Shown: piece by piece, positions 40,508-53,601 of the stretch | How positions within the stretch are numbered: position 1 is the first letter of the stretch | How the letters are laid out: the number at the start of each line of letters is the position of its first letter | Position numbers and translations under genes: made by a program | The notes under the pieces: model-generated | Told to the model about the DNA's origin: nothing | What the model saw: the letters and a program-made list of their open reading frames with translations, nothing else | The model's database searches: none | Virus record (IMG/VR): IMGVR_UViG_3300040856_002539 | Location: 1 to 56,127 of that record | Length of the DNA: 56,127 bases | Reading direction: 5' to 3' (one strand) | Source of the DNA: a virus

Positions 40508-42970
40508 TTATGCTATCCCATAAATTGAGGCATTGATTTTCGCAGAAACATTATCTGGGGGCATAAATTGTGGTACTTTTGTTCCTCCAGAAGATGCTAC
40601 TTCCTGTCCAGCTTGCTGCACGATTGGTGGGAGTTCGACAAATGATATTTTTGTATTTGCCACTGGAGGCCCTGGCAGTTGCATTTTTGCTTGTTGTCCG
40701 AGACTCAAACTTTTTTGATATGTTTCTCTGAGAAGTTCTGGCGATTTTACTGGTTGATTGTAATTACTCTTTCCTTGGAGATTTGGGATAGACGCCCATT
40801 CAGGAGCAATCTTATTCATGATTGCTCTACTTAATCCTTGTGTCTTTAGTTGCTGTAGAGTTACTCCTCTGAATTTGGCAAGAGCCCAGGCAGCACGATC
40901 TTGATTTTCTGGAGTCATCTTATCTGATGGCCTGAGAACTTTCATCTTCATCAGTTGCTTCAGTGTATTTGGCATAAACTGATATGCCCCAGAAGCAGTA
41001 GATTCTTTCGGTGGCCATGGTGCTTTTCCGCCACCAAATCTTTGTGGCAACCTATCGGTCATTTGAGTATTAATTAACTCCTTCACTGTCATCTGACGGA
41101 TGGGAATCTCCGATCCACCATAAACAGTATCATAAGAATTTTTTGATTTGATAGTTCCTTCTGCAACTTTCAATGATCTCAAAAATGCCTGAACTTCATT
41201 TGATTTATGTTCATATGTTGGAGCAGGGCCATGCCATGATGGTTTGAAATCCATTTTTGGTGCTGGGGCAGATCCTGTGCCAAACAGTTTTCCGATGCCT
41301 CGCATCATTCCGCCAATCATACCACCACCTTGTGCCAACTGAACATTGTTGACAAACTTTGGAATATTAGTGCCACCACCCATTTTGTTCATATAAAGAA
41401 GTCTATCGGCACCCCAATAATCTACTGCCTTCTTGCTGAATACAACCTCTCCTGGTTGTAATACAGTTGCCTGTGTATCAGCACCTGCCCCAGTCACAGT
41501 AAGTCCAGTGGAGTCATCAACATAACCACCTTCAAATGGCTGAAGCTGGGTCGCTTCTCCACCACCAGCAAATGCCTTGGCAAGTGGAATCATGCCGCCA
41601 CCGGCAAAACCAAGTCCTCCTCTAGATCCAAAGTCCAGAATACTTTTCATTGGACTTGGTTTTTTGCCGTATTCTGGATCTGATTTTTGAAGTTCTTTAT
41701 CTTGCTTTTCTCCTCGTGACTGCATATACATTCCAATTCCAGCCGCTGCAGCACCAGCACCTATAACGGCAGCAGTCTTTGGATTTTTAGCAATAAGTCC
41801 TAATAGTTTTGGTATTCCCGACTTTGCCAGTTTAAAGGTAAGTTTAGCAACAGTTCCAACAAATGCTCTTACAAACTTCCCAAAAGGAGTTGTGAATAAT
41901 ACTAGTCCACCAAGTAATGCTGGCCACCAGTCTTTTAGAAATCTTTTAAGTGTTTCGACTCGTTCTTTGTTTTCTGGATTATTAAACCATTTTATGAAAT
42001 TGACAAATGCCTTTCCTAGTAAAGTGTACCAAAGAAAGTTCAGAATCTTATCAATTAACTTTTGAACTGGAGCAAGCATCTTCACTGCAGAAGAAGCAAT
42101 ATTCTTAATTCCTTTCTCAAGAAAATTTTCTCGTTTTTGTCTTCTCTCTGTTTCTATTCTTTTTCTTTCCGAATCTTGTCTCTTTTTGAATAACTTGTTT
42201 TGTTCATCTAATACTTCTAAAATTTTAGAGACCGATTTATTGATTGAAGTAAGAGTATCAAGAACTTTTTTGTTACCTTCTCCAGATTGAGCAACTGGTG
42301 TATCTGATGGAGAAATTAATTCTTTTGGATCTACTGCATAATATTGATTGGTTCTTCTGTTATATCTTATTACAAAATCTCCAGGTGCATTATCTACTGC
42401 ACTATCCACATTAGCAAGTTGTCCTAATGTCAATCCACTGAAATATTTTTTTATTGTTTGCGCACTTATTTTTTTATTGTTGGGAGTTATAGTCCTATTT
42501 CTTATTCTACTTACTACTTCTTGCTTTTGTTCTTCTTCTTGTGTTGGGGTTTCATTTTCGGGCGCAGGCTTATTTTCAACACCACCTTCATTTTGTGTTC
42601 TTTCACTGGTGTTGATGGACTCATTTGGCGTTCTTTCATTTATTGTATCTTCTATGATATCATCTAATGTTGGTACATCTCTCGACTCTATCTCTTCTTT
42701 TAGATATTGATCTACCAACCACTCTTGATATTTTTCTTGTTGTGTGACATCATCCACCTCTAAAACAAAGATCCCACGAGGATCTTTTTTCATATTTCTT
42801 ATTACTTTGTTAACTTGTACTGTGTTCAAGTTAACAAATGACATATACCGACCGCCACCAGGTTGCTTCTTCCCAGTGAGCCTTGCCCTGAGAACTTTCC
42901 AAAATCTTTCTCCAACTTGTCCAGGAGAATAAAACTTTGCTTTTAAACCTGATGGCGCATCAATTAGCAT
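40508..42970 (-). CDS. Tape-measure-like virion protein with muramidase/transglycosylase domain
   Basis: 820 residues. YTLLGKAFVNF at 312-323, hydrophobic helices at 355-415, and GGGMIP...VLQPGEVVFSKKAVDYWG at about 500-518 (the LTPGEFV-like motif of tape-measure proteins). Residues 605-730 form a lysozyme-like domain (VAEGTIKSKNSYDTVYGG; SASGAYQFMPNTLKQL; NQDRAAWALAKFRG), as in lambda-R/GH104 enzymes. It begins inside the end of the gp26 -1 frame, which fits co-expression with its chaperone. It shares segments with the 985-residue protein, so the two are probably ancient paralogues. Confidence 0.7.
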   Translation of the reverse strand: MLIDAPSGLKAKFYSPGQVGERFWKVLRARLTGKKQPGGGRYMSFVNLNTVQVNKVIRNMKKDPRGIFVLEVDDVTQQEKYQEWLVDQYLKEEIESRDVPTLDDIIEDTINERTPNESINTSERTQNEGGVENKPAPENETPTQEEEQKQEVVSRIRNRTITPNNKKISAQTIKKYFSGLTLGQLANVDSAVDNAPGDFVIRYNRRTNQYYAVDPKELISPSDTPVAQSGEGNKKVLDTLTSINKSVSKILEVLDEQNKLFKKRQDSERKRIETERRQKRENFLEKGIKNIASSAVKMLAPVQKLIDKILNFLWYTLLGKAFVNFIKWFNNPENKERVETLKRFLKDWWPALLGGLVLFTTPFGKFVRAFVGTVAKLTFKLAKSGIPKLLGLIAKNPKTAAVIGAGAAAAGIGMYMQSRGEKQDKELQKSDPEYGKKPSPMKSILDFGSRGGLGFAGGGMIPLAKAFAGGGEATQLQPFEGGYVDDSTGLTVTGAGADTQATVLQPGEVVFSKKAVDYWGADRLLYMNKMGGGTNIPKFVNNVQLAQGGGMIGGMMRGIGKLFGTGSAPAPKMDFKPSWHGPAPTYEHKSNEVQAFLRSLKVAEGTIKSKNSYDTVYGGSEIPIRQMTVKELINTQMTDRLPQRFGGGKAPWPPKESTASGAYQFMPNTLKQLMKMKVLRPSDKMTPENQDRAAWALAKFRGVTLQQLKTQGLSRAIMNKIAPEWASIPNLQGKSNYNQPVKSPELLRETYQKSLSLGQQAKMQLPGPPVANTKISFVELPPIVQQAGQEVASSGGTKVPQFMPPDNVSAKINASIYGIA

Positions 42971-43142
42971 TTTGTTGTTGCTTTAGTTTTTCTTCTTCTA
43001 AATGTTCTTTTAGCCAAGTAACATAAATGTCTCTTTCAAATGGCATCAGATTTTCAATCTCTGTCAAAGAATATTTATGATACTGAATCAAAGAAAAACA
43101 AAGCCGATAATAATTCTCAAGATCAATATGAGAAAGACTTAT
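42960..43142 (-). CDS. Tail-assembly-chaperone T-like frame, probably made as a gp26 fusion by -1 frameshift
   Basis: 60 codons with no ATG, GTG or early TTG. The frame reads HIDLENYYRLCFSLIQYHKY and SLTEIENLMPFERDIYVTWL, which is the small helical module of gp51-like or lambda T-like proteins (H-x-S-L-x-E-I-x3-P-x-E-R). It overlaps gp26's stop as ATAA; a T TTT TTC heptamer in gp26 leads exactly into it. Its stop overlaps the tape-measure gene start by 11 bases. Alternative starts: AUA at 43142 or UUG at 43091. Confidence 0.65.
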   Translation of the reverse strand: MSLSHIDLENYYRLCFSLIQYHKYSLTEIENLMPFERDIYVTWLKEHLEEEKLKQQQNAN

Positions 43143-43858
43143 GCGAAAAAAGATGTTAACCCTTCAATCAACACTTCACTTTTTATTTTTGTGTTTGGAT
43201 TGTAGACTTCTACCTTATGAGAAAGCTTTGGCATCGTCTCAAAGAATTTTTCAATCAGTTTGAATTGGGAAGAATTCATTTGATCTAGGAACTCTTGCAT
43301 TTCTTTTTTGGTCACATCAGAAGTTGACCACGCCTCATCTTTGGTATAGATCTTGTCGATACATGATGAAATGAGATCAAATGCCTGATCTAAATCGTTA
43401 GACGCATTAAAGTCAAAATTATTCTTGATAAATTCATCAAGAGATGGATATTTCATTTCAATGGAAATGTTGTCATCTAGTTTGATATTCTTATCGTGCC
43501 CATCGAACTTCTGGACTTCAATTTCGTCAACATTAATTTTGACTTGAACTTCAGTTTGCCCATCGTCTGGACAAATGATGTTGACTTCTATTTCTTCTCC
43601 TACTGATTTGCCACGAATATTCAAGAAAAGATATTCGATATCAAATGTAGGAAGAGTTTCTACTTTTACTCCTCTGGTTTCTATGCAGTTCTTGAGTACA
43701 GTTTTGATTGCTTCTGTGATTTGTTTTGTGTCTTCGCTTTCGAGTGCAAGCAAAAGAAGTTTTTCTTCCCTGACTAGAAATGGTCTATATTTTATTTCTT
43801 TTCCGGTTGATGGTAAAGTCAGGTGGAATGAAGGAGTAGAAATTTTGGGGAGCGGCAT
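43139..43858 (-). CDS. gp26 baseplate hub assembly protein
   Basis: 239 residues (T4 gp26 is 208). The N-terminus, KEIKYRPFLVREEKLLLLAL followed by ESEDTKQITEAIKTV, is the signature of the T4 gp26 family (Pfam T4_baseplate), and CPDDGQ at about 100 is a typical loop. The protein ends GLTSFFA; its last codons TTT TTC form a -1 slippery site. By position it probably works as the G part of the tail assembly chaperone acting on the next genes. An ATAAATA late box lies 29 bp upstream. Confidence 0.88.
   Translation of the reverse strand: MPLPKISTPSFHLTLPSTGKEIKYRPFLVREEKLLLLALESEDTKQITEAIKTVLKNCIETRGVKVETLPTFDIEYLFLNIRGKSVGEEIEVNIICPDDGQTEVQVKINVDEIEVQKFDGHDKNIKLDDNISIEMKYPSLDEFIKNNFDFNASNDLDQAFDLISSCIDKIYTKDEAWSTSDVTKKEMQEFLDQMNSSQFKLIEKFFETMPKLSHKVEVYNPNTKIKSEVLIEGLTSFFA
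43145..43151 (-). promoter_or_regulatory. Predicted -1 ribosomal frameshift heptamer T TTT TTC
   Basis: On the minus strand the gp26 codons TCT TTT TTC GCA TAA contain T TTT TTC in the correct phase. Slipping back one base reads TTT TTT CGC ATA AGT and continues into the 60-codon frame at 42960. An internal GAAGGG lies 8 bases upstream (possible stimulator), and a 6 bp A-U/G-C hairpin starts about 10 bases downstream. Confidence 0.7.
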
Positions 43859-43886: not shown

Positions 43887-43893
43887 TATTTAT
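43887..43893 (-). promoter_or_regulatory. Late-type promoter box ATAAATA
   Basis: AATAAATAA on the minus strand, 29 bp before ATG 43858, overlapping the stop of the gp54-like gene. Confidence 0.55.
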
Positions 43894-44678
43894 TAACTTC
43901 GTTGTAAAGCTTGAATTTCTTTTAACTCATTCAAAAACTGTTCTTGGACAAGACTTCCAGGCTGTCTAGGTTCCGCATTTTTATCAAATTGTGCATAATC
44001 TCTGGATAGAACATAACGACTATAAGTAAAAGAAACAGTACACTTCAATAACTGAGAACTTTCATAAGACACTGGCATAGAATTAATGCTGATTGGATAA
44101 GCATTGATAAATTGATAAGTCAGTGGTCTATTAATCTTATTTCTTCTATCAATTCCTGTGTCTCCATAATCTCTCTCAAATTTTGTAATGTAGAGATTGT
44201 CTGTTGTGTAATCGTGTGGAAAATTTACTCTGTAATTGTATGTTGGACTTGTTTGGGGCATTCTGTTTGGTTGTTCTTCGTTTGATAATAAATTCTCACC
44301 AGCAACATAAGAAATCCAGTTCTCAAAAAAATCAATAACAAAGTAATTGCGATCAACAATAAAAGTGAAGTCGGCGCGATCATCATAAGACCTTCTATAT
44401 GCATGTCTTTCTGTTACGCCAGTATAATCATTATTAATTTCGTTTGTCATTAAACTGGAACCTGGTAGAGACGCATCTGAGCAAGATAATTTAATCAGTT
44501 CTTGGGTTTCGCCTAAATACTTCCCTCCTTTAAACCCAGCAGAGTCTCGTTGCTGTAAAAACGCCTGAACAAGATCTGGTGGCATAAACTCACAAATATA
44601 ATGAGATGTTAGGGCAGGCTGAAGCAGCTTGCTTTTGATGTGTGACATTTTATATGGCTGTATCGGTGCGCCTGCCAT
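43893..44678 (-). CDS. Tail tube/initiator family protein, gp54- or gp19-like
   Basis: 261 residues. CSDASLPGSS, YTGVTERHAYRRSYDD, DFTFIVDRNY and FFENWISYVAG match the tail-tube (gp19) fold family, whose members include gp48 and gp54. Next to gp26 and divergent from gp4, and with gp48 present elsewhere in the cluster, gp54 (baseplate-tail tube initiator) is the best guess. A GATAAATA box is 25 bp upstream. Confidence 0.65.
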   Translation of the reverse strand: MAGAPIQPYKMSHIKSKLLQPALTSHYICEFMPPDLVQAFLQQRDSAGFKGGKYLGETQELIKLSCSDASLPGSSLMTNEINNDYTGVTERHAYRRSYDDRADFTFIVDRNYFVIDFFENWISYVAGENLLSNEEQPNRMPQTSPTYNYRVNFPHDYTTDNLYITKFERDYGDTGIDRRNKINRPLTYQFINAYPISINSMPVSYESSQLLKCTVSFTYSRYVLSRDYAQFDKNAEPRQPGSLVQEQFLNELKEIQALQRS

Positions 44679-44711: not shown

Positions 44712-45158
44712 ATGGCAGAGCGAAAATACATTCAAGGATACTTTCGCCCAATACATCCAGAGAAGTACATTGGCAATCCCCAAAACATTGTGTACAGAAG
44801 TTCTTGGGAACTTCGTTTTATGAAATGGTGTGATGAAAGCACCAATGTTATTCAATATGGATCTGAAGAATTCTTTATTCCTTATCGCTCTCCAGTGGAC
44901 AATAAGACCCACAGATATTTTCCTGACTTTCTCATAAAAATACAAGAGCAATCTGGAGAAATAAAAACTTACTTAATCGAAATAAAGCCACAGAGACAGA
45001 CAGTACAACCAAAAACACCAAAAAGAAAAACAAAGAATTGGTTGTATGAGATGAAAACTTATTCTGTAAACCAAGCAAAATGGACAGCGGCAGAAGAATG
45101 GTGCAGAAGTAGAGGAATAGAATTCAAGATAGTGACCGAAAAAGAACTAGGAATTTAA
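44712..45158 (+). CDS. gp4 head completion protein
   Basis: 148 residues (T4 gp4 is 150). GYFRPIHPEKYIGNPQNIVY, RSSWELRFMKWCD and FPDFLIKIQ...TYLIEIKPQ define the T4 gp4/gp50 family, with a nuclease-like core (E-x9-PD-F...E-x-K). It completes heads after packaging so tails can join. Confidence 0.9.
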   Translation: MAERKYIQGYFRPIHPEKYIGNPQNIVYRSSWELRFMKWCDESTNVIQYGSEEFFIPYRSPVDNKTHRYFPDFLIKIQEQSGEIKTYLIEIKPQRQTVQPKTPKRKTKNWLYEMKTYSVNQAKWTAAEEWCRSRGIEFKIVTEKELGI

Positions 45159-52583: not shown

Positions 52584-52791
52584 ATTCTTATTCGATTGGA
52601 TGGATCAATTCCTCTAGCTCTTTGGTAATTGGTAAGTCCAGCTGGAGTTGAAGTATGCCCGGTCACTGTACATTGCCATCTTTGGGCGTTTGTTACTTTT
52701 CCACCTTTTGTACGATTTTTATTTTTTTCTTCTTCTGTTAACCCATAAAGTCCAACACCTTTTTCGTAAGCAGTTTTTCCTCCTTTTTTCC
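52580..52791 (-). CDS. C-terminal extension frame of the GIY-YIG endonuclease
   Basis: Open from the A6 run to TAA at 52580. It encodes [20 protein letters not shown], another NUMOD-like repeat, then a typical closing segment with WQC, TxTG, P-x-G-L-T and a basic end ([13 protein letters not shown]). No start codon of its own; it needs a -1 slip or one extra A to be joined. Confidence 0.6.
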
Positions 52792-53601
52792 GCCCTTCTT
52801 TCCGGCCTCACTTAATTCTTTTTTTGAAAGTGCGTGAACACCAAGACTTTTTTCGTGTGCAGATTTTCCTCCTTTTTTTCTATCTTCTGACTTTTGCTCT
52901 TTAGAACGACCATGAATTCCAACACCTTTTTCATAAGTTAATTTTCCCGCTATTTTGCCACCTTTTTTGGAATTTTCTTTTCGCTCTTCTTCTGATAACC
53001 CATGAACACCAATTCCCTTTTCATAAGTTAGTTTTCCTGCTATTTTACCCCCTTTTTTGCTATCTTTCGACATTTGCTCTTTGGAACGACCATGAATTCC
53101 AATACCTTTTTCGTAAGATGATTTTCCAGATTTCTTGCCATCTTCTGACTTTTGCTCTTTAGAACGACCATGAATTCCAACACCTTTTTCGTAAGATGAT
53201 TTTCCGCCTTTTTTGCCGGCCTTTTTTCCGATTTCAATTCTTTCTTCTTTTGTTAATGCATGAAATCCAATTCCAAGAATATGGCAGGTTTTTCCATTTT
53301 CTTTGCGCCTATTTCTTTCTTCTTCAGAACAACCAGAAACTCCTTCCCCACCATCAGTTCTGTTCAATAGAATTCCCGTTCCTAAGTCTCTTCTACCATA
53401 AAATTTAATCATGTCAATTTCATGCTGAAATGCTTCTTCTTCAGTTATATTTTCTTTTAAGAAAATTGTTCTACTTCTGTCTTTAGGAACAGGAATTCTA
53501 TTGTGTTTTACAAATGCACGGTTGCCTCTACCTTTTCCGATATAATAAGGAGTGCCATCTTTTTTGCTCAAATATGCATAAGTATAAAAATCTGATTCCA
53601 T
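52738..53601 (-). CDS. GIY-YIG homing-type endonuclease with NUMOD-like repeats, apparently frameshifted
   Basis: 287 residues in the zero frame. Residues 5-35 carry the GIY-YIG core ([21 protein letters not shown]25) and [16 protein letters not shown]. Residues 110-275 are five or six repeats KKGGK...[18 protein letters not shown], like NUMOD3 DNA-binding modules. In a C-terminal A AAA AAG sequence (52783-52789) the frame should shift -1 to continue for 67 codons with the conserved end [23 protein letters not shown] and RARGIDPSN; without it the protein ends early at ...[11 protein letters not shown]. Probably a free-standing mobile endonuclease. Confidence 0.85.
52840..53225 (-). repeat. 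Tandem NUMOD-type coding repeats
   Basis: Five or six imperfect units of about 70-90 bp, each encoding KKGGK-(IAGKL/S)-YEKGxGxHG-S-EE/KEQ. They are similar at DNA level (repeats of tgaattccaacaccttttt on the plus strand), so unequal crossing-over can change repeat number. Confidence 0.75.

Follow-up and report, generated by a model that had tools for sequence, protein, structure and literature searches.

The tail assembly chaperones gpG and gpGT of phage lambda are produced by a programmed −1 frameshift, for which homologues are also described (Levin 1993; Xu 2004; reviewed in PMC5009743). That review, from 2016, describes G-T frameshifting as conserved among long-tailed phages ‘except T4’ (PMC5009743). 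A chaperone frameshift has also been described in Vandenendeviridae and Andersonviridae (PMC12846349), which like the locus presented here have a poly-T −1 site ending a TAC-N gene in a myovirus, but use another motif (GTTTTT) and belong to another phage group. As for T4 itself, a review that counts gp26 and gp51 among the hub assembly chaperones gives gp51 as absent from the particle and cites for it a 1968 study on catalytic versus stoichiometric gene products (PMC3004832). The 1968 study would fit a long chaperone form present in minor amounts. Chaperone genes of T4-like phages were reportedly identified in 2022 by Vladimirov, Gautam and Davidson, in Virology. This work is cited elsewhere for poly-T slippery sequences in the TAC-N genes of T4-like phages (PMC12846349), and the PRFect paper reports from it that in some T4-like phages a short copy occurs together with a longer, fused one (PMC10885494). 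A frameshifted chaperone is already a known kind of gene, from lambda and, by citation, from T4-like phages.

Here, we analysed a 56,127-nucleotide stretch of viral DNA (IMG/VR record IMGVR_UViG_3300040856_002539; the window, to which all positions refer). The 3′ end of its gp26 gene reads ...GAA GGG TTA ACA TCT TTT TTC GCA TAA, so that T TTT TTC stands in the X XXY YYZ phase that a tandem −1 slip needs, as the preliminary description of this DNA had pointed out and as can be read directly from the sequence. The −1 frame runs from 43145 to a stop at 42960–42962 and is open past the gp26 stop, with 61 codons by our count and 60 in that description; its translation is RISLSHIDLENYYRLCFSLIQYHKYSLTEIENLMPFERDIYVTWLKEHLEEEKLKQQQNAN. 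Its identification as a T-like or gp51 domain was borne out by profile matching to phrog_634, a family named ‘baseplate hub assembly catalyst’ (gp51).

Features of the gp26–T locus and its neighbours in the window
Feature	Positions	Strand	Evidence
Tail tube protein gene, directly upstream of gp26	43893..44678	-	PF23849 Phage_TTP_2, E 3.4e-17; phrog_45, E 8e-32
gp26, putative short tail assembly chaperone (G / TAC-N), 239 aa	43139..43858	-	PF12322 T4_baseplate, E 1.9e-75; phrog_150, E 2.2e-81
GAAGGG, possible Shine-Dalgarno-like stimulator	43160..43165	-	AGGG ends 8 nt before the heptamer; function inferred
−1 slippery heptamer T TTT TTC	43145..43151	-	In phase; TTTTTTY kept in 246/250 loci; codon controls
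T part, −1 frame, 61 aa + stop; ‘gp51’ in the annotation of relatives	42960..43145	-	phrog_634, E 9e-25; C-terminus of phrog_150; purifying selection; 34-codon spacing
820-aa gene overlapping the T end by 11 bases, located where a tape measure gene would lie	40508..42970	-	phrog_35029, endolysin-type family

We consider it highly probable (about 0.9) that gp26 and a 299-aa gp26–T fusion made by −1 ribosomal frameshifting would be the short and long tail assembly chaperones of this phage. Most translation would terminate at the gp26 stop and yield the short chaperone (G, TAC-N). In a minority of ribosomes, the two tRNA-Phe on T TTT TTC would move back one base and re-pair with TTT TTT, after which CGC ATA AGT... 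would be decoded in the T frame, yielding the long chaperone (GT, TAC-NC). This predicted fusion comprises gp26 residues 1–238 followed by the 61 T residues and has a computed mass of 35.0 kDa, replacing the earlier estimate of about 33 kDa; gp26 alone computes to 27.5 kDa. The predicted tryptic peptides of the fusion are SEVLIEGLTSFFR and ISLSHIDLENYYR, and that of the C-terminus of the short form is SEVLIEGLTSFFA. By analogy with lambda, a coat of many short and few long copies would form on the tape measure protein, and tail tube subunits would be recruited by the T part. The slip, its rate and this role in tail assembly are proposed from sequence and analogy. As in lambda, a short gene follows the tail tube gene, a −1 slip near its end would give a long fusion, and a large gene lies behind. 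Unlike in lambda, the G part belongs to the longer T4 gp26 family (PF12322), the heptamer is T TTT TTC, and the fusion is a predicted one.

Among the 91 in-phase XXXYYYZ heptamers found in the 34 mechanical ORFs of at least 150 aa in the window, this is the only one that lies at most 12 codons from a stop and has a −1 frame open for at least 40 codons beyond that stop. Conservation of the heptamer, which the preliminary description had named as a check, was found across relatives: out of 250 gp26 loci, 231 have TTTTTTC and 15 TTTTTTT in phase, i.e., TTTTTTY in 246. The same heptamer is present in Menderavirus, Busanvirus, KVP40-type, Angelvirus and Desulfovibrio phages. The other four loci all belong to or group with Ackermannviridae, and the corresponding position in them reads NTT TTY. 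In these four (L090, L093, L095 and L097), T is in the −1 frame and CTT TTY or GTT TTT replaces the heptamer; a weaker single-tRNA slip or a restart at TAATG is possible there.

Two internal controls argue that the codons themselves, and not the amino acids alone, have been conserved at the shift site. In 126 dereplicated loci, the Phe-Phe pair at this site is encoded by TTT TTC (120) or TTT TTT (6), always after a codon ending in T (126/126). At another conserved Phe-Phe, internal to the same genes and some 32 residues upstream, the codons are TTC TTT (71), TTT TTT (27), TTC TTC (7) or TTT TTC (2). These counts are not independent trials, the sequences being related, but the contrast is large. 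The second control is the C-terminal Phe-Phe of gp26 in lineages with two gene copies (T4, WSPA, M12a and VR20), which is TTC TTT. We also observed that the highest synonymous conservation in the last 60 codons of gp26 falls at codon −10 from the first slippery Phe (Ser/Asn; 43178–43180, minus strand, in the window), with a ratio of 1.95, exceeding that of the heptamer codons.

The position of the T core (P-x-E-R) is tied to the heptamer. Of 242 complete loci, 234 place the core exactly 34 codons from the heptamer and three place it 33 codons away, and in the same loci the gp26 stop floats, following the first slippery codon by 6 to 30 nt. The peptide immediately after the heptamer is conserved among relatives; among close relatives T has a pN/pS of 0.22 over codons 2–10 and of 0.13 in the core, and the window has 0.26 against its close relatives, values that indicate purifying selection. 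The layout of a G/G-T frameshift proposed in the preliminary description is strongly supported by this fixed spacing, the conserved heptamer and slippery codons kept without protein need. The −1 frame also matches positions 243–280 of the 282 of phrog_150, weakly (E 0.01) but tellingly, pointing to gp26-family members with the T domain on one polypeptide; T4 gp51 is one.

Alternatively, T could be translated as a small protein of its own, through coupled re-initiation at an ATG beside the gp26 stop or, in the window, at a non-standard codon such as ATA. Most relatives do have an ATG at +5 and/or +14 from that stop, so the missing ATG is not the family trait it had been taken for; some have TAATG or TGATG overlaps, and database records annotate T as a gene of its own. 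However, 62 of the 242 loci have no ATG from the upstream stop through T codon 9, and 41 have no ATG, GTG or TTG either, leaving no such codon ahead of the core. These start-less loci include the window, Desulfovibrio phage 7757, phiWae14 and many marine contigs, and in them a −1 slip would be the plain way to the domain. For the window, the absence of a start before the T core held, but the frame is not start-less throughout: it has an ATG at +95, the M of NLMPFERD, and TTG codons at +50 and +74, likewise inside the conserved core. The ATA varies in relatives (GTA, GTG, CTA etc.), the spacing of the T core follows the heptamer and not the gp26 stop, the slippery codons are kept, and T4 gp51 requires its G part on the same chain. 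Re-initiation in place of a ribosomal slip is hence improbable in our view. In its favour is S-SCSM1 (L098, about 2490–2520), which keeps the heptamer but has an 11-nt insertion after the gp26 stop that shifts T to the +1 frame, preceded by an ATG. No other scanned locus departs from the −1 frame, and this one is either a real variant or an assembly error.

The six-T run could also act at the level of the polymerase, an extra T in some mRNAs giving the −1 product, and the test for the fusion put forward in the preliminary description cannot separate polymerase from ribosome slip. Runs that cause polymerase slippage usually have eight or nine or more residues, so that six is short; the run ends in C in 95% of loci, its length of six and its codon phase are kept, and an AGGG lies upstream at the distance of a ribosomal stimulator. 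Transcriptional slippage is therefore very improbable. Least credible of all, with next to no chance of being right, is coincidence, in which a protein need for Phe-Phe (conserved also in T4 gp26) and the codon use of a gene that is 65% A+T would create the T run ahead of a short gene in an arbitrary frame, since the internal Phe-Phe of the same genes is TTT TTC in only 2/107, the heptamer is not kept in duplicated gp26 genes, and T occupies the −1 frame in all sampled lineages bar one record.

Returning to the ribosomal slip, the AGGG may raise its rate. GAAGGG had been noted 8 bases upstream in the window, which is exact. Of the 109 dereplicated loci with a conserved Glu-Gly here, 103 have the AGGG, which was noticed before it was counted, whereas codon use would predict 31.5%. 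The AGGG is spelled by GAA GGG or GAG GGN. It lies 8 or 9 nt ahead of the heptamer and is too distant from the +5 ATG to act as a ribosome binding site there. In the −1 frameshift of E. coli dnaX, a Shine-Dalgarno-like element lies about 8–10 nt ahead of a slippery heptamer, and the AGGG may stimulate slippage in the same fashion; the heptamer of dnaX, however, is A AAA AAG, and it is followed by a hairpin. A search for conserved downstream RNA structure gave no shared fold, RNAalifold finding nothing in any group, and mean dinucleotide-shuffle z-scores were −1.2 to −2.3.

Finally, we compared the locus with gp26 and gp51 of T4 (208 and 249 aa). Both match PF12322 (E 8.8e-64 and 3.9e-52), as does gp26 of the window. 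Only gp51 carries a T domain, in frame, covering phrog_150 13–280 and phrog_634 2–103, and the C-terminal part of gp51 from a T4-type contig aligns with the cyanophage T frame. On these matches, T4 gp26 and gp51 are paralogues, the first being G alone and the second G plus T in one frame. The two phage types share one protein family with short G and long G+T products, which in T4 and its close kin would come from the gene copies 26 and 51, divergent on two strands, and in the cyanophage from one gene and a predicted slip; its G and T parts are homologous to those of gp51 but lie in two frames that only a slip would join.

In an unrooted tree of the G part, for which the two-copy T4-type genomes were collected one by one, the 26 and 51 copies of nine T4-type genomes separate from all single-gene phages with a branch support of 100/98, and the KVP40-type and Angelvirus Straboviridae fall with the single-gene phages. 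A query of viral contigs with T4 gp26 returned six loci only. Because the single-gene form is widespread, we infer that gene duplication replaced the frameshift and not the reverse. A fuller scenario, to which we give somewhat less than even odds, is that the AGGG acts as a dnaX-type stimulator on cyanobacterial ribosomes and sets the G:GT ratio, and that the heptamer was fixed across most of the single-gene branch of the T4 superfamily and discarded when the gene was duplicated in the ancestor of T4, RB49-type and 44RR-type phages. In the Pseudotevenvirus Enterobacter phage EC-F2 (L266, 1501–2794), we found a gp51-like gene and, behind it on the same strand, a second gene (185 aa) that was placed as gp26; a gp25-type wedge gene comes next. 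This head-to-tail arrangement, unlike the divergent 26 and 51 of T4, is possibly a trace of tandem duplication.

In 2010, the gp51 of cyanophages and marine vibriophages was described as seemingly without its first ~200 residues (PMC3037559). If the frameshift is true, one explanation of these truncated proteins is that the absent part is gp26, joined by the slip. Cyanophage ‘gp51’ would then be no independent gene, and in the phage records examined it would be either wrongly called or an unannotated domain. The T4 superfamily would also be aligned with lambda-type tail assembly, its T4 lineage substituting a gene copy for the frameshift. In the literature searched, from which Vladimirov et al. 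2022 was missing, we found neither the fixed 34-codon spacing with a floating stop, nor the start-less members and codon controls, nor the AGGG and the link to the ‘shortened’ gp51; the spacing, the upstream AGGG and the ‘shortened’ gp51 explanation are possibly new.

The gp26 model resembles known chaperones only weakly. The highest-probability PDB matches shown for the gp26 model were YqbN (3klu) and HK97 gp13 (2ob9), both weak (E 1.7–2.4), and a sequence search of the PDB returned nothing for gp26. For T, the same kind of search gave weak look-alikes to the HIV gp41 coiled coil, which we took as chance. A fold search with a T4-type gp51 model produced only noise, and a distant search from a Desulfovibrio phage query found no relatives.

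The gene after T had been described as tape-measure-like. Its matches are to the uncharacterised phrog_35029 and an endolysin-type family, with no tape-measure homology among the profile matches and no TM-like segment found; at 1.5 Å per residue, its 820 residues would span 123 nm. Elsewhere in the window, an ORF at 52738–53601 (minus strand) encodes a 287-aa protein with repeated KKGGK and YEKG.G.HG.S motifs and a homing-endonuclease-like look. An in-phase A AAA AAG lies 16 codons short of its stop and has a −1 frame open for 52 codons more, which is probably only its own repeat in a different frame. Beside the tail genes, at 44712–45158 (plus strand), lies a gene with a TnsA-like endonuclease N-terminal domain (PF08722, E 2.7e-25), in the place occupied by the head completion gene (gp4) in other cyanophages.
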